From: Metallosphaera hakonensis JCM 8857 = DSM 7519
GTDB taxonomy: Archaea > Thermoproteota > Thermoprotei_A > Sulfolobales > Sulfolobaceae
DNA: 64,000 nucleotides
NCBI RefSeq assembly: GCF_003201675.2
Contig: NZ_CP029287.2
Span: 1,178,001 to 1,242,000, forward strand
Direction of reading: 5' to 3'
In this document: piece by piece, positions 6,165-56,357 of the stretch
Layout: every line of letters starts with the position of its first letter
How positions within the stretch are numbered: position 1 is the stretch's first letter
Notes under the pieces: generated by a model
What the model was told of the DNA's origin: nothing
Databases searched by the model: none
Seen by the model: only the letters and a program-made list of their open reading frames with translations
Translations under genes and position numbers: made by a program

Positions 6165-6543
6165 TATTTTACGTTTATGCTCTTCATATAGAATAACACG
6201 TTAATGCGCTATAGAAGGTTTACTATGCGACGTCGTGACAGTTAGCGAGTAGGGAGCATAGTTTACGCCTAAAATTAATGTAGATTCCAGCGATATCTCA
6301 CTATTTTATTTCCTTTATAAGATATAATATTTTGCTGGACAGACTCGTGTCTTCTATATTAAGTTTATTAGCCGAGGGAAGAATACTTCACTTCTTGGAA
6401 ACATGCTTAGTCATATATCTGAAGCGTAATGATAGGGTAAAGACGTAACTTACCTCTGACGTTTAACTGAACAATGTGAGAAAGTTTACTGATATAGAGC
6501 TCCTAAATCACCTCAGTACTGACACTAAGTGTATTATAAATCA
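6165..6543. other. Gene-free spacer after tRNA-Val
   Basis: No open frame of convincing length, tRNA or repeat array is visible here. Composition is AT-rich, like the accessory patch that follows. Tract ends at the structured repeat copy A. Confidence 0.5.
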
Positions 6544-6634
6544 TTATACTTAGTCATTATCTAAATCGCAATGTGGTATCCAAAGTCACTCGATGTATCA
6601 GAGAAGGCTACGTTGCCCTTTAAAGTCTCAGGAA
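6544..6634 (+). repeat. 91-nt structured repeat, copy A
   Basis: This segment matches 49891-49980 on the opposite strand at about 79 of 91 aligned positions. It folds into a long hairpin: 6562-6565 with 6619-6622, and 6568-6577 with 6607-6616. All three arm differences between the copies keep or improve pairing: a T/C mismatch becomes G-C, and two wobble pairs become C-G. The wobble pairs only work as RNA on the plus strand here. Copy A ends about 115 nt before the YeeE start. It could be a conserved ncRNA or leader element, or a MITE-like repeat. Confidence 0.75.
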
Positions 6635-34642: not shown

Positions 34643-34760
34643 GCCGGGGTGGCCGAGCGGTCTAAGGCGGCACTACCATCCATCGGTAGCGCTAGGGGCT
34701 GCAGTGGGTTTCTCGTCACGGAAACCCGTTATTTCGCGGGTTCAAATCCCGCCCCCGGCT
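34643..34760 (+). tRNA. Class II tRNA (Leu or Ser) with probable intron(s)
   Basis: Acceptor arms GCCGGGG and CCCCGGC (discriminator T), a class II D arm (GCC, an 11-nt loop, GGC) and a T arm (GCGGG-TTCAAAT-CCCGC) are clear. The 67 nt between D and T arms are too long. Removing 16 nt (34673-34688, which carry a CTACC/GGTA hairpin) joins GCA to GC and gives a perfect anticodon stem GCAGC/GCTGC with loop GCTAGGG. That reads TAG (Leu), although position 33 would be C. The remaining variable region, with stem GGGTTTC/GAAACCC, is still long, so a second intron is possible. The D-arm sequence also fits tRNA-Ser. Confidence 0.75.
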
Positions 34761-42754: not shown

Positions 42755-44890
42755 ATGAAATATGTAGGTAAGCCTATCAAAAGGCTAGAGGACCCTAAAT
42801 TAATCACAGGAAGAGGTTCCTTTGTAGATGACGTCCAGCTTCCAGGTACCTATTACGTAGCGTTTTTGAGGTCTGAGTATCCCCATGCCCTAGTCTCTGT
42901 GAAACCTGGACCTAACATCTTCACGGGCTTCGATATCAACCCTGGTAAAGATTTTCCCATTCCGTCTAGGGAAGTTACATACGCTGGACAGCCCATTGCT
43001 GCAGTGGTCGCACGTGACAGATATGAGGCGTATGATCTCCTTGAGAGCATTGAGGTCAATTATGAGCCCCTTAGACACGAATTGGATCCTTTCAATGCCA
43101 TGGAGGATAAGGTAAAGGTATATTCGAAACTTGAGAGCAACATTTATGCCAAGAAAGAATTCGTAGGTGGAGAGGCCAAAAAAGAACTCGAGGAATCCCC
43201 AGTTGTTTTAACGGGAGAACTGCATAATCAAAGAGTTATTGCATCGCCCATGGAAACTAGAGGCATATTAGCCTGGTTTGATGGAAACCGGCTAAATGTA
43301 TGGTCTTCAACCCAATCGGCCCATTATCTCAGAAGAAACCTGGTTTCGTTCTTGGGAATTCAAAATATAAGAGTAATACAACCCGATGTTGGAGGTGCCT
43401 TTGGTAGCAAGATAATAACTCATCCAGAGGAGTACGCAGTGAGCTTCCTTGCCTTGAAGTTAGGCATTCCTCTGAAATGGATTCCAACCAGGAGAGAAGA
43501 AATGCTGAGCGCTGGACATGGAAGAGACAAGTGGTTAAGATACAAGGTAGGCGTGAAAAGGGACGGGACCATAACAGCCATCTTCGGAAGTGTGGTGGGT
43601 AACCTTGGCGCGCCTTACAGGGACGCTAATGATGATGACTCCGGTAACGTCATGAGCGCAGCTAGGATGCTTCCTGGACCTTATAGGATTAAACATGGCT
43701 ACGTTACAGCTTACAGTGTAAACACCAACCTACCTCCAACCACATCGTATAGGGGAGCTGGGAGACCGGAGGCAACATATTTCATCGAGAGTATTATGGA
43801 CGAAGTAGCAATGGAGTTGAAGCTTGATCCGTTGGAAGTGAGGGCTAGAAACGTTGTAAGACCTGAGGAGATGCCCTACACAAATCCTTTTGGAATAACT
43901 TATGATACTGGTAATTATCCTGAACTTCTTAGCATCGCGAGGTCTCATTATGAGCAACTTAAAGCTGAGATAAGAGGAGAAAATCAATGTGTTGGCCTAG
44001 CTATGTACGTGGAGATCACGGCTTTCGGCCCTTGGGAAACTGCTAGAGTCTATGCGAAATATGACGGGAGGATAATTGTAGTCACTGGTACTGGTCCTCA
44101 TGGTCAGGGAGACGCAACTGCCTTCGCTCAGATAGCTGCAGATACCCTGGAGATACCCATGGAGCTCATAGAGGTGAAATGGGGAGATACTGACATCATA
44201 GAGGACGGCATAGGCACATGGGGTAGTAGGACTGTTACCGTAGGAGGATCTGCGGTTTTGATGGCTGCTCAGGAGCTAAAGAAGAAACTGATAGAAGCTG
44301 GAGCCAAGGCCATGGAGGCTGACGTGGAGGAAGTGGAGTTTACCGAAGGGAAGATCAGGCATAAAAAGACTGGTAAGACCATGGAACTTATTGAGGTGAT
44401 TAAGTCCGCCTATAAGTTGGGCATTTCGTTGGACGTGACTACTGTGTACCCGGTCAAGAAACCTACGAGTCCGTACGGTGTGCATATGGCTTTGATAGAG
44501 ATAGACAAGGAAACTGGAACCGTCAGGGTTAAGAGATATATAGCTATTGATGATGTCGGTAACGTGATCAATCCCCTCTTAGCTGAAGGGCAAATTCACG
44601 GTGGTTCTCTTCAGGGGATAAGTCAGGCTCTATATGAAACCGCCGAGTTCAGTGACGGTGTGCTTCAGAACGCTACTTTCGGGGATTATGCGCTACCTAC
44701 CGCAATGGAGTCGCCTAGATTCACATGGAAGTTCATTACAAACGGAACTTCGCCTCACCCCACTGGCTCGAAGGGTATAGGAGAAGCCGGAACTGTAGTA
44801 GGAACTCCTGCGGTGATTAATGCGATTCGGGGATGTCTTAAGAGTAAGTTTAGTACAATGCCAATTAATTTCGAGACAGCCCTAAGGTGA
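42755..44890 (+). CDS. Molybdenum hydroxylase large subunit (CoxL/XdhB-like), orphan
   Basis: This 711-residue protein matches the large, molybdopterin-cytosine-dinucleotide-binding subunit of the xanthine dehydrogenase/aldehyde oxidase/CO dehydrogenase family. It has the N-terminal RLEDPKLITGRGSFVDD, QPDVGGAFGSK, and the active-site loop SYRGAGRPEA, which is the AYRGAGR type rather than the CO-specific AYXCSFR type. The catalytic glutamate lies in GSKGIGEAGTVVGTP. The FAD and [2Fe-2S] subunits are not adjacent, so partners must be elsewhere. The next gene overlaps its stop by 4 nt (GTGA). An aldehyde or purine substrate is likely; CO is not. Confidence 0.88.
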   Translation: MKYVGKPIKRLEDPKLITGRGSFVDDVQLPGTYYVAFLRSEYPHALVSVKPGPNIFTGFDINPGKDFPIPSREVTYAGQPIAAVVARDRYEAYDLLESIEVNYEPLRHELDPFNAMEDKVKVYSKLESNIYAKKEFVGGEAKKELEESPVVLTGELHNQRVIASPMETRGILAWFDGNRLNVWSSTQSAHYLRRNLVSFLGIQNIRVIQPDVGGAFGSKIITHPEEYAVSFLALKLGIPLKWIPTRREEMLSAGHGRDKWLRYKVGVKRDGTITAIFGSVVGNLGAPYRDANDDDSGNVMSAARMLPGPYRIKHGYVTAYSVNTNLPPTTSYRGAGRPEATYFIESIMDEVAMELKLDPLEVRARNVVRPEEMPYTNPFGITYDTGNYPELLSIARSHYEQLKAEIRGENQCVGLAMYVEITAFGPWETARVYAKYDGRIIVVTGTGPHGQGDATAFAQIAADTLEIPMELIEVKWGDTDIIEDGIGTWGSRTVTVGGSAVLMAAQELKKKLIEAGAKAMEADVEEVEFTEGKIRHKKTGKTMELIEVIKSAYKLGISLDVTTVYPVKKPTSPYGVHMALIEIDKETGTVRVKRYIAIDDVGNVINPLLAEGQIHGGSLQGISQALYETAEFSDGVLQNATFGDYALPTAMESPRFTWKFITNGTSPHPTGSKGIGEAGTVVGTPAVINAIRGCLKSKFSTMPINFETALR

Positions 44891-45363
44891 ACTTCTTGCA
44901 AAAACACCTTCTCTCTCAAAAGGAGGTGAAGGAAGTTCAAAACAAGATTAAGGATATGTACGGCGTTACCATTACTTCAGAGAAAATAGAGATTGGGAAG
45001 GAGAAAAGGAGAGTATTTTACTTCGTGGATGGGGTTCTCAGCTTTTTTAATGATCAACTTATTCCAACTCTATGTTTCGCCCAGAAATATGGTTTAAAAA
45101 TACCGTGGGTCGTCATAGATGAAGGAGCGGTAAAAGCTATTGCCAGGGGGGCAGATCTTTACGCTCCAGGCGTTATCGAAAGTTCCACTGAGATAAAACC
45201 TGGCTCACTTTTGCTTGTCAAGACAAGGTTGGGGCAACCTGTAGCTTTGATGATAGTAGACGAAGGAGCAATTGAAGCTCTAAAAGTGAAAAAGGGCAAG
45301 ATTGCCACTGCACTTCACTGGATTGGAGACGAAATATGGGACATGTGCAAGCCTAAAAACTAG
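44887..45363 (+). CDS. PUA-domain RNA-binding protein
   Basis: This 158-residue protein, from a GTG start, has an N-terminal DUF1947-like part and a C-terminal PUA domain (about 78-150: PWVVIDEGAVKAIARGADLYAPGV, VDEGAIEALKVKKGKIATALH). Archaeal relatives are similar to MCT-1/Tma20, which act in translation. It is coupled to the molybdenum hydroxylase gene by a 4-nt overlap, an odd pairing. Confidence 0.88.
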   Translation: MNFLQKHLLSQKEVKEVQNKIKDMYGVTITSEKIEIGKEKRRVFYFVDGVLSFFNDQLIPTLCFAQKYGLKIPWVVIDEGAVKAIARGADLYAPGVIESSTEIKPGSLLLVKTRLGQPVALMIVDEGAIEALKVKKGKIATALHWIGDEIWDMCKPKN

Positions 45364-45376
45364 AAATACAAACATA

Positions 45377-45718
45377 TCATCTCTTAAGCTCTTTTGGATT
45401 TCTCCTTTTCTTTAGTTCATGTAACTCCTTCCTAAGTTCCTCTATTTCCTTTCTAAGCCTCTCAATTTGACCGTCATGGATTTCAACTATCTTAAGAATT
45501 TTTTCGATCTGATTACTATTATCCAATGCAAGCTTAATATTTCCCGACTCATCCATTGAAGCATAGCCCAGCCTCTCAAGTTCCCTTACATAGCCCTTAG
45601 CAGTCTTGGGCGAAACCTTTAGTTGAAGAGCCAAGTCCTGTACGTTCACCTCGCCCTTAACTTTGAGAATTTCGATAATATCCTGGAGTCGGGGGGTTAG
45701 TTCCATATCCATGTGCAT
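45377..45718 (-). CDS. Winged-helix regulator with coiled coil
   Basis: This 113-residue protein has an N-terminal winged-helix DNA-binding domain (about 8-60, with VNVQDLALQLKVSPKTAKGYVREL as the HTH) and a C-terminal heptad-like coiled coil (IEKILKIVEIHDGQIERL, Lys/Glu-rich). It is probably a dimeric transcription regulator. It is divergent from the ornithine-cyclodeaminase-like gene, 50 nt away, and may control it. Confidence 0.8.
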   Translation of the reverse strand: MHMDMELTPRLQDIIEILKVKGEVNVQDLALQLKVSPKTAKGYVRELERLGYASMDESGNIKLALDNSNQIEKILKIVEIHDGQIERLRKEIEELRKELHELKKRRNPKELKR

Positions 45719-45768
45719 TCGACCGCACTGCTTTTAAGCAATATGGCTTATCTAATTAAGGGCTTTTA

Positions 45769-46707
45769 TTGACACTGCTCATAAAAGAAAGCGAGGTTGA
45801 TCAAATCTTCACTTTAAAGGATGCCTATGAATCTCTTCGTGAGGCCTTCATATATGAGGAGAATAAGAGAGCCATTAATACGAAGAGGATTAGAACATCA
45901 TTCTCCGGATCCACGCTCACCTATCAAGCTGGGGCATTAGAAGGATATATTGGGTTTAAAACATATGTACGCGGAAATTTCGTATCCCTTCTCTTTTCGA
46001 GTGATGGAGAACTTCTTATGATAGCAGAGTCCGATAGACTCTCCCTTTTTAGAACTGGAGCTTTATCAGTACTGGCGGCTGACGTGATGAGGAAGAGCTA
46101 CTCCTCCGTGGGAATAATTGGATTGGGTAAACAGGGGATAGCCCAAGTCGAGGCTTTTCATAACTTAGTACCAGGGGCGAAAGTCCTAGGATATACTAGG
46201 TCACCTGAAAGGGAAGGTAAAGCGAGAAAGACACTCTCAAAACTAGGTATACCGCTCCAAACTTTACCAAGCATCAAGGATGTGGTATCTAAGGTCGATG
46301 TTATTGTAACAATTACAACAGCCACATCACCTTTTCTTAAGAGGGAATACGTAGGGGAGAGCGTTCATATAAATGCAATGGGCTCCAATCTGCCCGAGAG
46401 AGTTGAGCTATTCCCTGAGATTATAAAGGCCTCTGCTCTAATAGCCGTTGAGGATAAAGATCAAGCTAGGGAAGAGGCTGGAGACCTCATCCTCGCAGAG
46501 AAGATGGGAATGCTAGATTGGAAGAAAACGGTCAATATTTCAGAGATTTTAGCTGGAAAAGTAACGACTCCGTCTGGTATAACTATTTTCAAGTCTGTAG
46601 GAATAGGTCTCGAAGATGTAGCAGTAATGAAAACGTTATTTAACAAGGCTAAATCTAGAGGTTTGGGAAGAGAGATAGAGGTTAATGGAAGATGGTCTCC
46701 AGAATAG
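45769..46707 (+). CDS. Ornithine cyclodeaminase / mu-crystallin family dehydrogenase
   Basis: This 312-residue NAD(P)-dependent protein has LPxR-like TSFSGSTLTYQAGALEGYIGFKTY and the Rossmann motif VGIIGLGKQGIAQVEAF near residue 115; SLFRTGALS precedes it. Family members make proline from ornithine, or reduce imines, alanine or lysine-derived compounds. The start is TTG, since no ATG or GTG is close. It overlaps the aminotransferase gene by 16 nt, suggesting a shared amino-acid pathway. Confidence 0.85.
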   Translation: MTLLIKESEVDQIFTLKDAYESLREAFIYEENKRAINTKRIRTSFSGSTLTYQAGALEGYIGFKTYVRGNFVSLLFSSDGELLMIAESDRLSLFRTGALSVLAADVMRKSYSSVGIIGLGKQGIAQVEAFHNLVPGAKVLGYTRSPEREGKARKTLSKLGIPLQTLPSIKDVVSKVDVIVTITTATSPFLKREYVGESVHINAMGSNLPERVELFPEIIKASALIAVEDKDQAREEAGDLILAEKMGMLDWKKTVNISEILAGKVTTPSGITIFKSVGIGLEDVAVMKTLFNKAKSRGLGREIEVNGRWSPE

Positions 46708-47831
46708 GGAGGGAGATAGAGCTATCTCCTGTGGAATTGGGGTCCCGTTTAGGGAAAAAAGTTGAAATTAATATGGCCAGCGGATCCCCAGATCCAGCAA
46801 CAATACCTGTAAAGGAAATAGAGAAAGCTTACCAAGAGGTTCTTGCAGCCAAGGGCTCCTCCTCCTTGTTTTATCCTGGAGCTGGAGGTCAACAGGAACT
46901 AATAGATGAAATTTCTAGGTATCTACCTGAAATTGGAATAAGGTCAAAGGATCCCGTTGTGGTAACTAGCGGAGCTCAGCATGGAATAGAGCTTCTCTCT
47001 AAATATTTGCTCGATAACGACCCAATCATTGTTGAAAACCCAACGTTCGTGGAAACATTCTCTGCCATGAAGTTGAGATCGTCGGTAGTTCTTCCAGTGA
47101 ACATTGATTCTAAGGGAATTTCGGTAGATGAGCTCGATAAGTTAACAAGGATAACAAGACCGGAAGTGGTCTACGTTATTCCAAATTGTCATAATCCCGG
47201 AGGGGTTAACTTAAGCGATGAAAGAAGAAAGCGAATTGCTGAGATCGCGGAGGAAAGGGGCTTTTACGTTATAGAGGACGATCCATACAGGCCTATTGCA
47301 GGGTGTACCCCTAGTCCCATAAAAGATTATGATAAAGCTGGTAGAGTCATACACGTAAGTAGTTTCAGTAAAATTCTGGCTCCAGGTCTAAGAATTGGTT
47401 TCATTATTGCTAACAAAGAGATCGCAGAAAAAGTAAGCCTTTTAGAACAACTGGACTTCTCTACCTCCACTATAAATCAATATATAGTTTCCTATCTTCT
47501 GAAAACTGGTCTGGTAACCTCCAGGTCAAAAAACCTCCACTTACATTACGCGACAAAGATGAAAGTGCTAATAGACTCCCTAACCGATGCTGGCCTAACT
47601 GATTTTAATGAACCGACTTGTGGGTTCTTCCTCCTCTTGGACCTTAAGAGAGACGCCTTTAGAGTCCTAGAGGAAGCCAACAAAAAAGGTCTCGTATTCG
47701 TACCAGCTAAGGGATTCTTTTTGAGAGGAGGAGAGACCAAGGCTAGATTTAGCATAACAATGCCAAACGAAGAACAAATTAAGAGAGGAGTAGAGATATT
47801 GAAGAATGTGATCAAGGACGTTTATGCCTAG
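46692..47831 (+). CDS. PLP-dependent aminotransferase, class I/II
   Basis: This 379-residue fold-type I aminotransferase is of the kind related to 2-aminoadipate/branched-chain aminotransferases. PLP motifs are TSGAQHGIELLSKY, IPNCHNPGGV, EDDPYRPI and the lysine in SSFSKILAPGLRIG. It is coupled to the ornithine-cyclodeaminase-like gene and convergent with the M24 peptidase gene (4-nt overlap of stops). The substrate amino acid is not defined. Confidence 0.9.
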   Translation: MVSRIGREIELSPVELGSRLGKKVEINMASGSPDPATIPVKEIEKAYQEVLAAKGSSSLFYPGAGGQQELIDEISRYLPEIGIRSKDPVVVTSGAQHGIELLSKYLLDNDPIIVENPTFVETFSAMKLRSSVVLPVNIDSKGISVDELDKLTRITRPEVVYVIPNCHNPGGVNLSDERRKRIAEIAEERGFYVIEDDPYRPIAGCTPSPIKDYDKAGRVIHVSSFSKILAPGLRIGFIIANKEIAEKVSLLEQLDFSTSTINQYIVSYLLKTGLVTSRSKNLHLHYATKMKVLIDSLTDAGLTDFNEPTCGFFLLLDLKRDAFRVLEEANKKGLVFVPAKGFFLRGGETKARFSITMPNEEQIKRGVEILKNVIKDVYA

Positions 47832-48883
47832 ATCATAATTATCTCCTTTTCAAGTGAATTCAAGACTTCCAATCTTCTCCTCATTACGACCATGTCCTCT
47901 ATCCTTATTCCAAACTTCCCAGGAATGTAAATTCCAGGCTCTATAGTGAATACCGAGTTTTCGGATATAATGTCCTTATTGTCAGTGGAGATGTAAGGTT
48001 CCTCGTGAACGTCTATACCTATTCCGTGTCCAGTTCTATGAATAAAGAATTTTCCATAGCCCCTATCGCTTATTAATTTCCTAGCCCTTTCATCTATTTC
48101 TTTGCCAGATAAACCGAACTGAGATTCCTCAGCGCTCAGCATGGCCTCTTTGACAATTGACCAGATCTTCTGGACTTCATTAGAGAGTTTTCCAATAGAT
48201 AAAACCCTTGTAGTGTCCGTGGAATATCCTCTATACTTAACACCAAAATCTGCAATTATTGGCTCCCCAGGATGGACTTTCCTATCGGTACATCTAAGGT
48301 GAGGCATTGAGGTATTAGGCCCTGAAGTTAGGATCGTGGAGAAAGAGGGTACAACACCACGCTCTCGGAAAACTGTTTCGAGTTGCTGCGCTAGATGACA
48401 TTCGCTTAATCCTTCCTTGATCTTAGAGCTAAATTCTACCAGGGATTCCTCAGCTATTTTCAGACCGGCTCTCATTATCTCAAGTTCTTCCTCGTCCTTG
48501 ACAGACCTCAAGGGCTTGGTCACTGTTGATGCAGGTATAATATTAGAGGGAGAAAATCTGTTAAGCAAAGCAATTAAGAAGACGGACCATAATTGATCGT
48601 CTATGGCTAACAAAGAACCACTCCTTATATTAGCTAGCGTGTAAGGATCTTCACCATCATTATATGTCCTCACCTCCATATCAATTGAGGACAGTTGTTC
48701 CTCGTAAATTTTAGGTGCAATTATGTATTGATCGTCACCTAAGATTAGAAGGATAGGTCTCTCCATTGGTTCCTCCATGAAACCAGTGAAATAAAACATG
48801 TTACTTCCAGGGCCTATGATCATGTAGTCAGCATGACCTTGAAGCAACTCCCTGGCTTTACTCAAGCGTTTCTTATAGTCCAT
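47828..48883 (-). CDS. M24-family Xaa-Pro dipeptidase/aminopeptidase
   Basis: This 351-residue metallopeptidase has an N-terminal creatinase-like domain (1-130) and a C-terminal pita-bread domain. The metal ligands are visible in IADFGVKYRGYSTDTTRV (two Asp), HRTGHGIGIDVHE (His) and FTIEPGIYIPG plus GIRIEDMVV (two Glu). It releases residues before proline or splits Xaa-Pro dipeptides. The TnpB-like gene ends only 31 nt upstream of its start. Confidence 0.94.
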   Translation of the reverse strand: MDYKKRLSKARELLQGHADYMIIGPGSNMFYFTGFMEEPMERPILLILGDDQYIIAPKIYEEQLSSIDMEVRTYNDGEDPYTLANIRSGSLLAIDDQLWSVFLIALLNRFSPSNIIPASTVTKPLRSVKDEEELEIMRAGLKIAEESLVEFSSKIKEGLSECHLAQQLETVFRERGVVPSFSTILTSGPNTSMPHLRCTDRKVHPGEPIIADFGVKYRGYSTDTTRVLSIGKLSNEVQKIWSIVKEAMLSAEESQFGLSGKEIDERARKLISDRGYGKFFIHRTGHGIGIDVHEEPYISTDNKDIISENSVFTIEPGIYIPGKFGIRIEDMVVMRRRLEVLNSLEKEIIMI

Positions 48884-48914
48884 GTATAGAAATAAGGGTC
48901 TCGGTAAATACAGT

Positions 48915-49745
48915 TTAGCATGTATAGTAACACTTTAGTGCAAGGTTATATGCGGCGTTAAAGTCTCTATCCACCTTGTAACCACAAACAGGACAAACAA
49001 AAAGTGAACCCAGAACTTCACCCTTCTTGTAGCCACATTGAGAGCAAACCTTAGAGGTGTTTCTTGGGTCTAACCTCTTGAACCTAATTCCCCTTTCTAT
49101 GAACTCCCTTTCAAGTTCATCTTCTATGAGCTTTAAACCTCGACCGATCTTTGCGTCGTACAACCTCAGGTCTTCCAATGCCACTATTTTTGGATTTAAT
49201 TCTACGAGAAAATCCATTAACTCCTTCAAAGTGGACCTTACCTTGGTTTTTATCTCTCTAACATAAGATAAGCCTTGAGACTCACCCATATACTTCGTAA
49301 ATGTCTCCATTATTTCGCTATTTCCAATATATTTACTTTTATATATTTTTCCATCCTTTATTACAGCCACAACGGTAAAAAGATGCCTTATTCCTAGGTC
49401 AATACCCACTATTGGATCATCTATGGCATAGGCAAGAAATACCCGTATTCCATCCGAGAAGTCCACTATGGCATAAAGGGGATTCCCATACATTTCTACC
49501 TTCACCGTAGCCCCTACCTTATCCAGTTTGTAAGTAGGACCGTTACCAAGAAGCTTAAGAGGACCAAGTCTAGGGCTAGTATATATTATGTTCAGATCTC
49601 TCAAACTGGGGGGAGGAGACGGTTTAGTCTTTACGCCTGCCTTTTCCAAGGTCTTGTAATATGAAACGAAATATGTGATATCACTATAGATTTGTCTTAG
49701 TTTTCCATAATCAAGTATTTTAGCCTCAACTAAATGTTCCTTCAT
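48915..49745 (-). CDS. Compact TnpB-like (IS605 OrfB) RuvC nuclease
   Basis: This 276-residue protein has the RuvC triad of TnpB: Asp116 in VGIDLGIRHL, Glu191 in VALEDLRLYD and Asp259/261 in DRDFNAAYN. A zinc finger sits between the second and third motifs (Cys234, 237, 251, 254). TnpB proteins are RNA-guided nucleases of about 370-410 residues; here only about 115 residues precede RuvC-I, so much of the usual N-terminal lobe is missing. An in-frame TAA lies nine codons before the ATG, so the frame cannot be longer. No TnpA transposase is near, and only 31 nt separate its stop from the next gene. It could be a truncated or a domesticated copy. Confidence 0.8.
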   Translation of the reverse strand: MKEHLVEAKILDYGKLRQIYSDITYFVSYYKTLEKAGVKTKPSPPPSLRDLNIIYTSPRLGPLKLLGNGPTYKLDKVGATVKVEMYGNPLYAIVDFSDGIRVFLAYAIDDPIVGIDLGIRHLFTVVAVIKDGKIYKSKYIGNSEIMETFTKYMGESQGLSYVREIKTKVRSTLKELMDFLVELNPKIVALEDLRLYDAKIGRGLKLIEDELEREFIERGIRFKRLDPRNTSKVCSQCGYKKGEVLGSLFVCPVCGYKVDRDFNAAYNLALKCYYTC

Positions 49746-49890
49746 AAGAATATCTATTGCAGTGCATGTTTAAGAACTTAAGCCATAGATTTTCTATGAG
49801 AATATTAGTCTTTTTCCCATTAAAAATCCAATATCAAAATGATTTAACTAATTCAGATATTGTGGTAAATTTAAAGAATATATTTTATAT
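49746..49890. other. Spacer between TnpB-like gene and repeat copy B
   Basis: AT-rich 145 nt with no gene. If repeat B is a transcript on the minus strand, this is the stretch that would connect it to the TnpB-like gene. Confidence 0.35.
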
Positions 49891-49980
49891 TTCTTGGGAC
49901 TTTAAAGGGCAACGTAGCCTTCCCTGATCATTAAGTGACTTTGGGTGCCACGTTGCGCTTTAGACTATGACTAAGTATAA
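49891..49980 (-). repeat. 90-nt structured repeat, copy B
   Basis: This is the opposite-strand copy of 6544-6634, about 87 percent identical with one gap. On the minus strand TAAAG and GCAACGTGGC pair with GCTACGTTGC and CTTTA around one C/C mismatch, giving 15 base pairs with a 26-28-nt loop. It is 145 nt upstream of the TnpB-like start, in the same direction, just as copy A precedes the permease. No gene is visible in the remaining 49981-50055. Confidence 0.75.
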
Positions 49981-50055
49981 TATTATTAAGACTGAGAACC
50001 TCTTATCTCTTCCATCTCAAGGGCTTGAGTTTACTTCGTTTCCTCAAAACCTAAA

Positions 50056-50763
50056 TTAACTAACTTGTTCTACATCTCCAAATTTGATTTCTGATCCTCT
50101 ATACCCTAAATAATGATTAACAGTAGCGGAGTATATGTACGATCCCCATCTATACATTTTATAATATTCTTCTTTTTCTCTCAAGTTATCTCTATTATAG
50201 AAGTAATATACCAAGAGTTCTGGACCGCCGCCCTCGCTGAAGGCGAGAAGAGCAGAATTAAGACTAGTGCTCCCCTCCTTGATCCTCTCCATTACAATCG
50301 CGTAAGCTTCCCTGGGAGTATGGTTGCTCATTACTTCAGATATGTCCCTTAGAATCATATAACTATCAGTATAAGGAAGCTCCCCATTTCTAAAGAAGGT
50401 CCTGGACACGGACCCATTATGAGCAAAGAATAAGTCATACGGCCCGCTTCTCATATGATATGGGTGAGCGTGCGAAACCCCTTGCAGAAACCGCCTGTAC
50501 GACTTTCTAGCATGGATAATTCCATATAATCTCTCTCCCCTTATACTGTATAGCAGAGCCACGTTATCATCTAGATACATAGGCTTCGAAGAATTGTAAT
50601 AGAGTCTATTCCATCCTCCGTCTTGATACGAGTATATAACGAAACCCCATCCATCTGAGTGAGAATCGTTAGAGAGTACATCCCTTCTAGCTGACAAAAG
50701 AAGAGCCTTTACTATCTCAACATTTATCTTATCGGTGCCTGAAAAAGCTACAAATCTACACAT
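50056..50763 (-). CDS. Class II glutamine amidotransferase domain protein
   Basis: This 235-residue stand-alone Ntn-type amidotransferase is of the YafJ/EgtC-like group. Cys2 of MCRFVAFSG is the nucleophile, and HARKSYRRF, SHAHPYHMRSG and FAHNGSVSRTF form the glutamine site. It should release ammonia from glutamine or hydrolyse a related amide. It overlaps the upstream MBL gene by 8 nt. No synthetase partner is visible. Confidence 0.87.
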   Translation of the reverse strand: MCRFVAFSGTDKINVEIVKALLLSARRDVLSNDSHSDGWGFVIYSYQDGGWNRLYYNSSKPMYLDDNVALLYSIRGERLYGIIHARKSYRRFLQGVSHAHPYHMRSGPYDLFFAHNGSVSRTFFRNGELPYTDSYMILRDISEVMSNHTPREAYAIVMERIKEGSTSLNSALLAFSEGGGPELLVYYFYNRDNLREKEEYYKMYRWGSYIYSATVNHYLGYRGSEIKFGDVEQVS

Positions 50764-51442
50764 AAATGGTCAACCCGTCCTTGGCCAATAACCCTTTGTC
50801 ACCTACTACATGTTCCACTTCCTTCTCAATTTGCGCAGGGACATGGGTAAGTACAGGGTTCTTAAACATTTTTATCACTTCCTTCACTGACGTATGTCCC
50901 CATTTCCTACAATCTTCTAGGCAACTTGCCTCATGAATCACCAAATCGACGTTGATTGCCTCTTTGTCTACTTCCTCACAAGGTTCGGACGTGTCTCCTG
51001 TGTATAAAATTCTCCTCTTACCATCTGTGACAACGTAACTTACAGCATATATCTTGTGACATGCTTCAACCGAATATACCTCCAAGTCTCCTACCTTACC
51101 TTCTGGACGCCTCGATTCTTCCAAATTAGCACTAATCTCGTTATTCCTCTGAAACTGCAATAGGATATCTGAGAATCCAGGCGGAGAGTGAATGATTAAA
51201 TCCCCAATCCCGTCAATTTTCCTTCTAACAAGGTGGTCGAACACACCAGCGAAGTGATCGATGTGAAGATGCGTAAAGAAGGCCGAGTCCGGGTAGACAT
51301 TCAAGTCCTCTACTCTCATGTTAACTCCAGATCCGAAATCTAAGAGCAGTTTCCCCTCTTTTCCCTCAACTAAAATACCCGACTTAAATCTCCTTGACCC
51401 ACTGGTACTGCCCGCACCAGTTCCCAGGAAGGTAATCTTCAT
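50756..51442 (-). CDS. MBL-fold hydrolase, RNase Z-like
   Basis: This 228-residue metallo-beta-lactamase-fold protein begins MKITFLGTGAGSTSGSRR, has the zinc motif THLHIDHFAG near residue 57, a later ILYTGDTSEP, and a final His in VLTHVPAQIE. It resembles RNase Z and related hydrolases, but is short and lacks an obvious exosite arm. It may act on RNA or on a small molecule. It is co-transcribed with the amidotransferase gene. Confidence 0.83.
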   Translation of the reverse strand: MKITFLGTGAGSTSGSRRFKSGILVEGKEGKLLLDFGSGVNMRVEDLNVYPDSAFFTHLHIDHFAGVFDHLVRRKIDGIGDLIIHSPPGFSDILLQFQRNNEISANLEESRRPEGKVGDLEVYSVEACHKIYAVSYVVTDGKRRILYTGDTSEPCEEVDKEAINVDLVIHEASCLEDCRKWGHTSVKEVIKMFKNPVLTHVPAQIEKEVEHVVGDKGLLAKDGLTIYV

Positions 51443-51493
51443 TTTTATCGCCTCTCGTCGGCGTCCTCTATATCACAAAGACCAGGACATTTA

Positions 51494-52366
51494 TCAGAGT
51501 GAGATATCGGGGAATTTTTCTTTGATTTCTTCTGGCTTCGGTCCGAGAGCACCATATGTGGTAACTGATATCGAAGCTATAATGTTTGCCTTTACTACTG
51601 CGCTTTCTAGATCGTATCCTTTCTCTAGGTAAACGGCTAAAGCTGCGTTAAATACGTCTCCAGCTCCGGTAGTGTCCACTGGGTCAACCTTAATTGTTGG
51701 AATCCTCACAGACTTTTCCCTGGTAAAGATCATTGAACCTCTCTCTCCCATAGTTACTACTATGGCCTTTTTGACTCGCTTAAGTAAAATATCGGCACTA
51801 TAGATCATATCGTCAGAGTTGCTTATCTCCTTAAATTCCACATCGTTAGGCGTAAGTATGTCCACATAATTGAAGATCTCAGGATCGTTAATCTCTGCCG
51901 GAGCCGGATTAAGTATACGAAGCCCAGAAAACGTCGATAAAGCCATCTTCACAACGTCCTCCCTTATCTCAAGTTGAGTTAAAAGTACGTCACCATCAAG
52001 ACACGAATCCAAGTCCTCCGGTAATAGCTCGTAATTTGCACCCCTGTTCACCACTATCATGGTCTCTCCACCACCATTAAGCAATATGTATGCGGATCCT
52101 GTATGAGTGTTCTTTACCTTGACACATGACGTGTCCACTTTCTCCTTCCGTAAGAAACTGATGGCTCTTTCTCCGTGGCTATCGTTACCTACCGCCCCCA
52201 CAAACTTCACTCTGCCTCCCAGCCTTGAGGCTGATACCGCTTGATTTGAACCCTTCCCTCCATGGCCCAATCTGACCTCCTGCGCAAATACTGTCTCTCC
52301 CGGAACTGGAAAGCGATCTAGCTTGAAGGACATATCAACGTTATAGCTTCCCACCACATTAATCAT
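51494..52366 (-). CDS. PfkB-family sugar/nucleoside kinase (ribokinase-like)
   Basis: This 290-residue kinase has the two PfkB signatures: GGKGSNQAVSASRLGG (about 34-49) and DTTGAGDVFNAALAVYLE (near 235). Asp in the second motif is the catalytic base. Ribokinase is the closest pattern, but archaeal relatives also act on nucleosides or other sugars. Its ATG overlaps the thiDN stop (ATGA). Confidence 0.88.
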   Translation of the reverse strand: MINVVGSYNVDMSFKLDRFPVPGETVFAQEVRLGHGGKGSNQAVSASRLGGRVKFVGAVGNDSHGERAISFLRKEKVDTSCVKVKNTHTGSAYILLNGGGETMIVVNRGANYELLPEDLDSCLDGDVLLTQLEIREDVVKMALSTFSGLRILNPAPAEINDPEIFNYVDILTPNDVEFKEISNSDDMIYSADILLKRVKKAIVVTMGERGSMIFTREKSVRIPTIKVDPVDTTGAGDVFNAALAVYLEKGYDLESAVVKANIIASISVTTYGALGPKPEEIKEKFPDISL

Positions 52367-53574
52367 TTCCTTAACCCCTCCAATTTAGTTATCAGCTCAT
52401 CTAGGCTCTCTGCAACTAGGACAACCTTACCATCAATCATTAGCAGGTCACCGTAGATTCCGCTCTCAGAAATCTTGAGACTACCGGTCTCAACCAAGTT
52501 TAGAAGTTCGTTAGTTAGTGAAAATGAGACTCCTACTCTCTTACCAGTTAATTTCAAGGCTTTCGCAACAAGGTTGGTATACCAATTTACAACTATGGGG
52601 CCATCTACCTTGATCCAATCAATGTACCTGACTATACCCCCAGCCAAAGTGGCAAAATCTCCGTACTCTGTAACGTAACCAATGTTCATCTTTTCCTCAT
52701 GGGATAAAACTTTCTTTACTATACAGGGATTCTTCTCAATGAATTCAACTAGTTTCTCAAGATTTTCTCTTGCCTCCTCGATTTTCGATTTTCTTTCTAT
52801 TATGGAGAAAGGATCCACTGGTCCGTTTCCTGATCCCAAGGATAATGAGAACTTAATGGCTTCGGAGACAACTTTCTTAGCCTGAATCAACGCATCTTTA
52901 AGCTTCATTCCTCTGCTCAGGAAGGCTGTGATGGCAGCCGAAAATACGTCTCCACTACCGTGAAGATTTTCAGTGTTTATGAGGTCCCCCTTTAATTCCA
53001 ACTCTTCGCCTTCAATGACAGCGAAATCGTATCCGCCTAAAGTCTTTCCTCCCTTCACAACTACGTTTACCCCAAGGTTCTTGTGCAAATACAGAGCTGT
53101 GGTTTTGACGTCCTCATTTGTTCTTATTCTGAAGCCTGTTAGTTTTTCAGCTTCAAACTTGTTAGGTGTAATTAGCATGGATTTCCTTGCCAATCTCATT
53201 ATTTCTCTCACAGTATCCTCAGAAACCAGTGGAAAACCACTCTTCGAAATCATTACGGGATCTAAAACTAAATTAATTCTGTACTGGGATACCTTCTTCT
53301 CTACGGCCTCGACTACTTTGCTTGAGGCCAACATACCGGTCTTAGCATATTTAACTTGGAAGTCTTCCATTATTACGTCGAACTGAGACTCGATGAAGTC
53401 TGGGGGAAGCTCGATTATCTTGGCTACCTTCCTAGTGTTCTGGGAAGTCAATGCGGTTATCACAGTTACCCCAAATACTCCCAAAGAAGTGAACGTTTTG
53501 AGATCGGCCTGAATCCCCGCGCCCCCTCCCGAGTCGCTACCTGCTATGGTCATGGCCACAGGTCTTGTAGACAT
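52363..53574 (-). CDS. thiDN: Bifunctional HMP(-P) kinase and thiamine-phosphate synthase (ThiD-ThiN)
   Basis: This enzyme has an N-terminal ThiD kinase domain (TIAGSDSGGGAGIQADLKTF near the start, HGSGDVFSAAITAFL near 215) and a C-terminal ThiN domain (about 290-403) of the archaeal type that condenses HMP-PP with thiazole phosphate. I start at the ATG 53574 (MSTRPVAM), 18 codons after the longest frame, because ThiD begins there. It makes thiamine phosphate and precedes a PfkB kinase gene. Confidence 0.9.
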   Translation of the reverse strand: MSTRPVAMTIAGSDSGGGAGIQADLKTFTSLGVFGVTVITALTSQNTRKVAKIIELPPDFIESQFDVIMEDFQVKYAKTGMLASSKVVEAVEKKVSQYRINLVLDPVMISKSGFPLVSEDTVREIMRLARKSMLITPNKFEAEKLTGFRIRTNEDVKTTALYLHKNLGVNVVVKGGKTLGGYDFAVIEGEELELKGDLINTENLHGSGDVFSAAITAFLSRGMKLKDALIQAKKVVSEAIKFSLSLGSGNGPVDPFSIIERKSKIEEARENLEKLVEFIEKNPCIVKKVLSHEEKMNIGYVTEYGDFATLAGGIVRYIDWIKVDGPIVVNWYTNLVAKALKLTGKRVGVSFSLTNELLNLVETGSLKISESGIYGDLLMIDGKVVLVAESLDELITKLEGLRK

Positions 53575-53627
53575 TGAGAGAATAGTTGATAGAACCAAGA
53601 GATATTCTTTGTCTTTACAAAATGTCA

Positions 53628-54815
53628 CTATGCTCTCGGAATGTTAACTGATATGTTTCCAGACCTCTCAGTCTTAACCCACTCTTTCCTGACTCCGGTT
53701 AACTCCATAATAATCGAGACCAAATGGAGGGCTATGGTGAAGTTAAGATATAAAGCCGAGAGGAAAATGTAAATCGATTCTATCATATGCTTCCTAGAAA
53801 TCATAACTATAAGTAGAAAAGTCATCAGTGAGGAGAAGGATACGACTGCAGCCAGGAGAAGATGAATCTGATAAGAATAGATGAACACGAGGGAATAATT
53901 GGCCAAACTTAGCACCATGAAAATAGGAGTTCCAACTAGCATACCTGCATCAATTAACTTCCACGTAAACTTGAACCTCGAAATCCTCACACTTAACTCA
54001 AAGTTACCCCTATACCATCTCAACCTCTGCTTCACTAGTGAAATGAAGGACGTAGGTACTTCTCTCCAACTTTGTACTGAAGGGGAATAAAGGATTTCGT
54101 AATTTAGGCTTGTAAGCTTGAGACTGAGATCTAGATCCTCTGTAAGAACGTTCTCGTTCCATCCCCCTACCTTCTCTAGAGCCTCTCTCTTCACAAAACT
54201 ACATGTTCCTTCTAGCGGTACGAACATGCCTGACCTAGCCCTACCTGATACGGAGTATTCGCTGAAGAGTTCCTCTAAGGAGGCCAACCTAGTTATCACA
54301 GACTCCCTAACATTTATGGGAACCAGCCTTCCTTGAACTCCTCCAACATTAGGATTGGAAAGGAACTTCTGAGCAACGTAACCTAGGACATCGAGTCTGG
54401 GAACCGTATCGGCATCAAAAACTCCAATTATCTCCCCCCTTGAAATTCTTAGCCCGTAATTAAGAGCTCTACTTTTCCCGTTTACGGCCTGTCCTTTTTC
54501 TAGGTGCATACATTTGATTATATTATACATCTCCGCGTATTTTTTACAAACATCAAGAGTACCATCCGTTGAGCCGTCCTCCAATACGATTATCTCATAT
54601 TTTGACCTATCATACTCTTGGTTCACTAATCGTTCCAGAAGCCTTCCCAACACCGGTTCCTCGTTTCTTGCCGGTACAAGAAGAGAAAAAGAGGGGCCCG
54701 ACGAGGACTTTGATTCCACTGGTTTCCAGGTTAATCCGTATATCGCAAATCCTGAATTATAGACGCTCCATATGGATACTATGATGCTAAGACCAATTAC
54801 AATATCATCAAGCAT
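53628..54815 (-). CDS. Membrane glycosyltransferase family 2
   Basis: This 395-residue processive-type GT2 has an N-terminal membrane helix (about 1-23). The catalytic domain shows LVPARNEEPVLGRLLERL, IIVLEDGSTDGT, GVFDADTVPRLDVLG and TEDLDLSLKL with QRLRWYRGN (the D,D,D,QxxRW pattern). Two to three C-terminal helices follow. It may add sugars to a lipid-linked or secreted glycan. The acceptor is unknown. Confidence 0.88.
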   Translation of the reverse strand: MLDDIVIGLSIIVSIWSVYNSGFAIYGLTWKPVESKSSSGPSFSLLVPARNEEPVLGRLLERLVNQEYDRSKYEIIVLEDGSTDGTLDVCKKYAEMYNIIKCMHLEKGQAVNGKSRALNYGLRISRGEIIGVFDADTVPRLDVLGYVAQKFLSNPNVGGVQGRLVPINVRESVITRLASLEELFSEYSVSGRARSGMFVPLEGTCSFVKREALEKVGGWNENVLTEDLDLSLKLTSLNYEILYSPSVQSWREVPTSFISLVKQRLRWYRGNFELSVRISRFKFTWKLIDAGMLVGTPIFMVLSLANYSLVFIYSYQIHLLLAAVVSFSSLMTFLLIVMISRKHMIESIYIFLSALYLNFTIALHLVSIIMELTGVRKEWVKTERSGNISVNIPRA

Positions 54816-54874
54816 TGTAGATAGTTCTCGGCACTCCTAATATGTTTTTAGCCGTCTTGGCTCTATTCAAAACG

Positions 54875-55120
54875 TTATAATCTGAGTGAGTGAATCTCCT
54901 CAATAACGTTTCGTAGATCCATTGTTACTAAACCGATATCGATCTTGGCCCGTCTTATCCCATAATTACTTCTCCTTTCCATTAACTTCCCCGTTCCATA
55001 AAGGGCCAACCCAGTTACAGTAGTTACATGAAATGGATCATCTAGCCCAAAGGCAATGAATTTCCCTATCCCCTGAATTAACTTTCCCTTGGGTTCATAG
55101 TCCCCAAGTATATCCTTCAT
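54875..55120 (-). CDS. Small protein of unknown function
   Basis: This 81-residue frame starts with ATG, has balanced composition and ends in IDIGLVTMDLRNVIEEIHSLRL. I do not recognise the family. It is isolated, with 59 nt to the glycosyltransferase start and a 371-nt spacer before it. No membrane segment is evident. Confidence 0.55.
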   Translation of the reverse strand: MKDILGDYEPKGKLIQGIGKFIAFGLDDPFHVTTVTGLALYGTGKLMERRSNYGIRRAKIDIGLVTMDLRNVIEEIHSLRL

Positions 55121-55491
55121 GTATCATAAATTTGGAAATTAATCTTTAAACGTAATGGGGCCTATAACCCTTTTAATCCAGTTCCTCATTCCTCTCCTGG
55201 AATACCACATTTGTTGTTTCGCAAGTTTAAGTGCGAAAGACCTACTTAACTGAAATTTGTCCCGTCTTCTGCTCCACCCTGAGTTGTAGAGTTTTGATCT
55301 ATTTCCCAACGATTTGAAGTAGATAAGTTAGTTTTTAAGTTTATTCCAACTGAAATCCTATCCAAGATATCATTATTTTCAAGATAATCTGAAAATTAAT
55401 TGACCATAAAATCCTAAAGAGGACTAATGATATAAAGAGAAATTAGCCCAATTCGCTGGAACAATCTTAAGAGAAAGAACAAAATAGAAGA
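55121..55491. other. Gene-free spacer downstream of the zinc ferredoxin
   Basis: No gene, tRNA or clear structure is visible in these 371 nt. The promoter of the 81-residue protein should be near 55140-55170, but no strong TATA box is seen. Confidence 0.4.

Positions 55492-56357
<866 letters not shown>

Follow-up and report, generated by a model that had tools for sequence, protein, structure and literature searches.

Encoded on the minus strand at positions 48915–49745 of the window, the 64,000-nucleotide stretch of Metallosphaera hakonensis DNA analysed here, is a short TnpB-derived putative nuclease of 276 residues (ATG start, coordinates including the stop codon). The open frame comprises 284 codons and is bounded upstream by an in-frame stop, the ninth codon before the ATG. 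Preceded by 115 residues is the aspartate of the RuvC-I motif VGIDLG (D116), and the remaining acidic residues lie in RuvC-II (ALEDL, E191) and RuvC-III (DRDFNAA, D261); the codons of these three catalytic residues, placed by computation from the start of the frame and checked on the sequence, are at 49398–49400, 49173–49175 and 48963–48965, all on the minus strand. Located between RuvC-II and RuvC-III, as in TnpB, is a CxxC...CxxC zinc ribbon (C234, C237, C251 and C254), matched by the TNB domain of Pfam (PF07282, 62.5 bits against a cut-off of 26.3, residues 211–268).

The protein scores 57.7 bits with the NCBIfam model guided_TnpB (NF040570), below the curated cut-off of 100. Its PHROGs matches are named transposase (67.8 and 54.4 bits), and PADLOC Cas12 models align with the C-terminal part of the protein (62.8 bits for the best of them, at residues 217–271); both names are as expected of any TnpB relative, owing to the shared RuvC domain and zinc ribbon.

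The nearest neighbours are genes for an M24 peptidase, a class-II glutamine amidotransferase-like protein and an RNase Z-like hydrolase. Downstream on the same strand is the M24 peptidase gene (47828–48883, minus), which starts at 48883, 31 nt from the stop codon of the short gene (48884–48914). The usual upstream neighbour is the amidotransferase-like gene (50056–50763, minus; PF13230 below cut-off), which overlaps the gene for the RNase Z-like hydrolase by 8 nt (together 50056–51442, minus); the latter scores below every NCBIfam cut-off listed. Among eight typed neighbours (45769–54815) there is no tnpA-like gene. The first-pass annotation had read the locus in the same way, with an intact triad and zinc finger, about 115 residues ahead of RuvC-I, a stop nine codons before the ATG, no TnpA and the next gene 31 nt after the stop.

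Immediately upstream of the ATG is a presumed promoter of the gene's own (49746–49805, minus), with an AT-rich TATA-like box (CTTAAGTTCTTAA here) about 25–37 nt before the start codon. Judged by eye on the upstream regions, the box is alike in most orthologous loci, where it stands about 25–40 nt before the ATG, and it suggests that the mRNA may be leaderless. With a promoter that is likely its own and a gene that is found elsewhere in three genomes (G013, G021 and G011), a function read from the neighbourhood was set aside; no single function emerges from the surrounding genes. Elsewhere in the window, at 34643–34760 on the plus strand, Rfam matches a 118-nt tRNA (39.2 bits) that is absent from the ARAGORN listing, possibly an intron-containing tRNA.

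Distribution, inheritance and selection

The short gene is a family-wide Sulfolobaceae orthologue and not a truncated transposon gene. A search with a 24-row profile, in which up to 10 candidates were scored per genome, gives a single full-length match (382–468 bits) in 30 of the 31 Sulfolobaceae genomes, the sole genome without a match being G006, which is 79% complete. Among the 198 other genomes of the class it gives no full-length match and partial matches in five; in the phylum-wide sample, with up to six candidates scored per genome, full-length matches occur in 19 of 398 genomes, all of them Sulfolobaceae, and partial ones in two more. Ranking next after the orthologues is a partial match of 86 bits, an ordinary TnpB. 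A contig scan with two patterns, a method that can miss relatives, returned 13 loci, seven of them nearly whole-length. One locus (L075) belongs to an 8,374-base record titled Euryarchaeota archaeon, in which the position of the gene agrees with that in the equally long Sulfolobaceae contig G021:C150; the title is probably a wrong label.

The alignment comprises 24 loci, that of the window and 23 others, with six further family members (G219–G224) kept outside it. Since the 23 orthologues align with the window protein over its whole length, at 36–84% identity, the short ORF is not a product of chance. Counted from the aligned ATG, the protein has 272–282 residues in 23 of the 24 loci, and neither the triad of D116, E191 and D261 nor the set of four zinc cysteines varies in any of the 24. 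At the aligned start of the G011 orthologue (L067, around 8098) there is no ATG, GTG or TTG; the cause may be a frameshift, an error in the sequence or a start codon of a rare type.

Adjoining the short gene in 19 of the 23 other loci is the amidotransferase-like gene, and in 16 of them both this gene and the RNase Z-like gene lie upstream; in G001 synteny is confined to the downstream side. The 3′ flanks, compared by eye, are not alike between genera. In genome G020, which we take to be Sulfolobus acidocaldarius DSM 639, the orthologue lies at 226.9 kb. It is probably a different gene from Saci_1941, described as a TnpB gene of S. acidocaldarius in the available text of PMC12817955.

Strong purifying selection acts on the gene across the family, with dN/dS of 0.010–0.095 in six of 12 orthologue pairs (one of the six, L048/L049, is near saturation at silent sites, and the other six pairs are saturated). 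Pairwise distances of the short gene follow those of five neighbouring genes with Pearson r of 0.89–0.93 (17–20 genomes), against 0.88–0.95 for neighbour–neighbour controls; the rank correlation is lower (Spearman 0.49–0.68, a value that stands without a rank control between neighbours). The tree, built from 24 short and 19 ordinary proteins, contains a branch with support of 97/97 that separates the short from the ordinary ones. The positions of L067 and L068 are unsure owing to their long branches, and the tool flags a meeting of long branches. Tentatively, given such branches, the nearest of the 19 ordinary TnpBs are three Sulfolobaceae frames of 384–389 codons (L093, L095 and L009) and the broken L094. 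The last of these (G007:C1:1118979–1119536), a 292-codon open frame that falls in the TnpB group nearest the short clade and lacks the N-terminal part, is likely to be a broken element. One copy per genome, in 30 of 31 genomes, differs from the mobile, multi-copy state with element ends that is typical of TnpB; the short gene is vertically inherited as a single copy.

Full-length close relatives, which would have marked the window's copy as a simple truncation, are absent among the 23 orthologues examined: all are of about the same length and most (19 of 23) are at the same locus. The proposal of the first-pass annotation that the gene is a functional minimal or domesticated form thus gains from this constancy of length, single copy per genome, shared locus and purifying selection, function itself being predicted from sequence. 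Truncation or pseudogene formation was rejected on the same pattern of length, copy number and selection. Broken TnpB-like fragments do occur in the same genome, with open frames of 78–190 residues, and a decaying transposon remnant might in principle stay intact by chance; set against a gene of one length, in single copy and under strong purifying selection throughout the family, this explanation receives almost no weight.

Predicted architecture

The AlphaFold2 model of the whole protein has a mean pLDDT of 85.5 and a pTM of 0.65, and its best Foldseek matches are Cas12f and TnpB (8dzj_A, E = 1.3 × 10⁻¹⁰), although the whole chain superposes poorly on Cas12f (TM 0.42 with 8dzj_A, by query length). 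The model divides into a RuvC domain with zinc ribbon (residues 111–276; 48918–49415, minus), assigned by fold match and PF07282, and an N-terminal part of WED-like strands in which REC has shrunk to a single helix (residues 1–110; 49416–49745, minus), assigned from AlphaFold2 models and a weak fold match.

The C-terminal half (residues 109–276) is most similar to Cas12f (Z-score of 16.6 and r.m.s.d. of 3.1 Å over 161 residues with 8dzj_A). Below this stands the RuvC Holliday-junction resolvase (Z-score of 14.0 and 2.8 Å over 131 residues with 7w8d_B), which shares the RuvC fold and has no guide; the short protein differs from it in having a WED-like part and a zinc ribbon, finds no match to the Pfam RuvC-resolvase family at E-values up to 1, and has TnpBs as its sequence relatives. 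The compact type V effectors of the Cas12f kind, whose matching chains among solved structures have 415–539 residues, use CRISPR guides; no CRISPR repeat array is present at 44000–56000 of the window.

Modelled alone, residues 1–110 give a pLDDT of 87.7 and a pTM of 0.77. In the fold search with this part, the top 20 rows are all TnpB or Cas12, among 430 chains pre-ranked by Foldseek, with weak matches (Z-scores of 2.9–5.1, Foldseek E of 0.16 or higher) in a range where the tool warns of chance arrangements. The 110 residues map on residues 2–177 of ISDra2 TnpB as strand 1, one helix in place of the REC bundle, and the WED strands. This helix, predicted at residues 16–35, is all that remains of REC in both the whole-protein and the 1–110 model, where TnpB has a helical REC domain inserted in WED. 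The shortening thus appears from the models to be internal and mainly in REC, the first WED strand being kept. This refines the first-pass annotation, which called the protein shortened: by the models, and within the limits of a weak fold match, the shortening does not lie at the N-terminus.

In its RuvC triad, zinc ribbon and, by the models, WED-like strand order, the short clade resembles TnpB of IS200/IS605 elements (ISDra2, ISFba1). The solved TnpBs matched have 384–410 residues and the whole ordinary frames compared mostly 384–452 codons, and the 276-residue protein is smaller than every TnpB or Cas12 chain matching it among solved structures. The 24 short proteins carry a net charge of +6 to +14 (pI 8.9–9.4), against +31 to +45 (pI 9.8–10.3) for six ordinary TnpB frames, about a quarter of the net positive charge and about a third of it per residue. 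Such a drop in charge is consistent with a large RNA no longer being bound, although the smaller size of the short protein also counts.

Tests for a guide RNA in cis

Serving as a positive control for a silent-site test of the 3′ end were ordinary TnpBs of the same genomes, taken as frames running from stop to stop, so that their first codons may lie outside the translated part. In these, 15 of 80 four-fold sites have changed in the last 40 codons against 264 of 510 in the body (Fisher p = 1.6 × 10⁻⁸, five pairs), a suppression that is expected where the guide RNA overlaps the gene; in the short clade the counts are 66 of 127 and 308 of 646 (p = 0.38, nine pairs, 18 of the 24 sequences), the pairs in both cases being non-overlapping and the p values rough, given some dependence among sites of the same gene. 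With overlapping pairs, 27 of 27 ordinary pairs and 3 of 11 short-clade pairs show less silent change in their last 30 codons than in the body. The silent-site comparison therefore gives no guide-RNA footprint at the 3′ end of the short clade.

There is little room for a transposon right end at the short-gene loci, and in six of the 10 loci with listed ORFs (L057, L060, L064, L066, L068 and L069) the stop lies no more than 4 nt from the end of a convergent ORF. The first-pass annotation had remarked on this lack of room, which holds, and had allowed that the right end might run into the M24 peptidase gene, which does not: with the convergent ORFs, the limited room and no 3′ footprint, a cis guide in the 3′ end of the gene or inside the M24 gene was rejected. 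Upstream of the short gene, only the gene-adjacent part is alike in related species, and this, with the lack of a 3′ footprint, leaves no sign of a guide RNA placed beside the gene as for TldR.

Also rejected was a guide RNA in the 310-nt upstream gap, where the candidate hairpin (49882–49983) is a dispersed repeat. This MITE-like element, located between the promoter and the amidotransferase gene and not part of the system, forms a hairpin of about 95–100 bp with imperfect terminal inverted repeats, and was found with shorter seeds and not at default settings. It has at least 40 matches in the genome, itself included, that are 77–88% identical to the 49882–49983 copy, and a second copy lies in the window at about 6543–6634. 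Matches occur in four of the 31 family genomes including this one, those in the other three being at few places and mostly pieces of 28–39 nt, and related loci lack the repeat at the corresponding position.

Proposed domestication of a TnpB and its alternatives

With a probability of about 65%, we infer that the gene is an anciently domesticated TnpB, predicted from its sequence and models to have kept the RuvC nuclease, lost its cis guide RNA and come to act without a guide. From TnpB proper the short clade differs in its REC of one helix in the models, its lack of a 3′ guide-RNA footprint, its single copy and its vertical descent. A TnpB derivative kept outside transposition is known in TldR, the nuclease-dead TnpB-like repressors, in which, according to the available text of PMC13418256, the nuclease has been lost and the guide RNA kept; the short clade shows the reverse, with nuclease residues retained and no cis guide RNA seen, and its triad is intact where that of TldR is disrupted.

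The main rival, unlikely in our view, is that the protein is still RNA-guided and takes its guide in trans, from a separate locus or from the guides of resident TnpB elements. Its RuvC half and, more weakly, its WED strand order are those of the RNA-guided TnpB and Cas12f, and each of the 31 family genomes has at least two PF07282 matches (2 to 70 per genome overall); against it count the reduction of REC to one helix in both models, the low net positive charge, and genome G005, which keeps the gene with only two PF07282 matches and in which a protein search finds the short gene alone. Somewhat less probable is a protein that binds nucleic acid in a structural or regulatory role and no longer cuts, its triad surviving because the metal site stabilises the fold. 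The nuclease activity of the short protein is, after all, predicted from its motifs, the invariant acidic residues might also bind metal without supporting turnover, and TldR illustrates the retention of TnpB derivatives without cutting (PMC13418256, available text); the same text, however, describes nuclease-dead derivatives with inactivated nuclease domains, whereas here all 24 proteins, with identities as low as 36%, keep the complete triad.

A defence role, in which the protein would cut ends or intermediates of IS200/IS605 elements, or viruses, recognised by their structure, ranks slightly lower still. An origin from a transposon nuclease, the load of up to 70 PF07282 matches in family genomes and the PADLOC Cas12 matches would suit it, the last being of little specificity among TnpB relatives, but the gene is also kept where such matches are few (two in G005, four each in G015 and G017), and Pfam and NCBIfam identify no known defence gene among the eight typed neighbours.

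Under the favoured reading of an ancient domestication, a transposon TnpB would have been captured as a host gene at or near the base of the Sulfolobaceae, and would in the process have shed the ends of the element, the guide RNA that overlaps its 3′ end and the greater part of the REC lobe, which reads the guide, while the RuvC active site and zinc ribbon were retained under strong selection. The product would be a small metal-dependent RuvC nuclease, most likely undirected by a guide RNA of its own, in which the WED-like strands and the remaining helix may hold a structured or single-stranded nucleic acid and the zinc ribbon may feed one strand to the D-E-D site for cutting. Its substrate would be branched or single-stranded DNA, or else RNA, and its role would lie in genome maintenance or RNA processing. 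The fold resembles that of junction resolvases, and TnpB reportedly processes its own RNA, which makes an RNA substrate possible.

Among the literature matches listed, in which subscription journals and supplements are thinly covered, no published description of the short gene was found. Domesticated TnpBs are already known; the opposite outcome, with the nuclease kept and the guide lost across an archaeal family, is not described among those matches. Programmable nucleases and nuclease-dead repressors are traced back to TnpB, and if the reading is true this clade took the contrary course, in which the catalytic site stayed and the guide was given up, as a mirror image of TldR. With its 276 residues the protein would represent a natural minimal core of WED, RuvC and zinc ribbon, and the clade would allow experiments on the parts of the fold that are able to cut in the absence of RNA and on the taming of a mobile nuclease.

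Sulfolobus acidocaldarius and S. islandicus are open to genetic manipulation, and both species are likely to carry the gene, given its spread through the family, so that the cellular role can be sought there. On balance, with odds a little better than even, the Sulfolobaceae may have made a housekeeping nuclease out of an RNA-guided TnpB by shedding the guide RNA and REC and keeping catalysis, turning programmable into structure-directed cutting.
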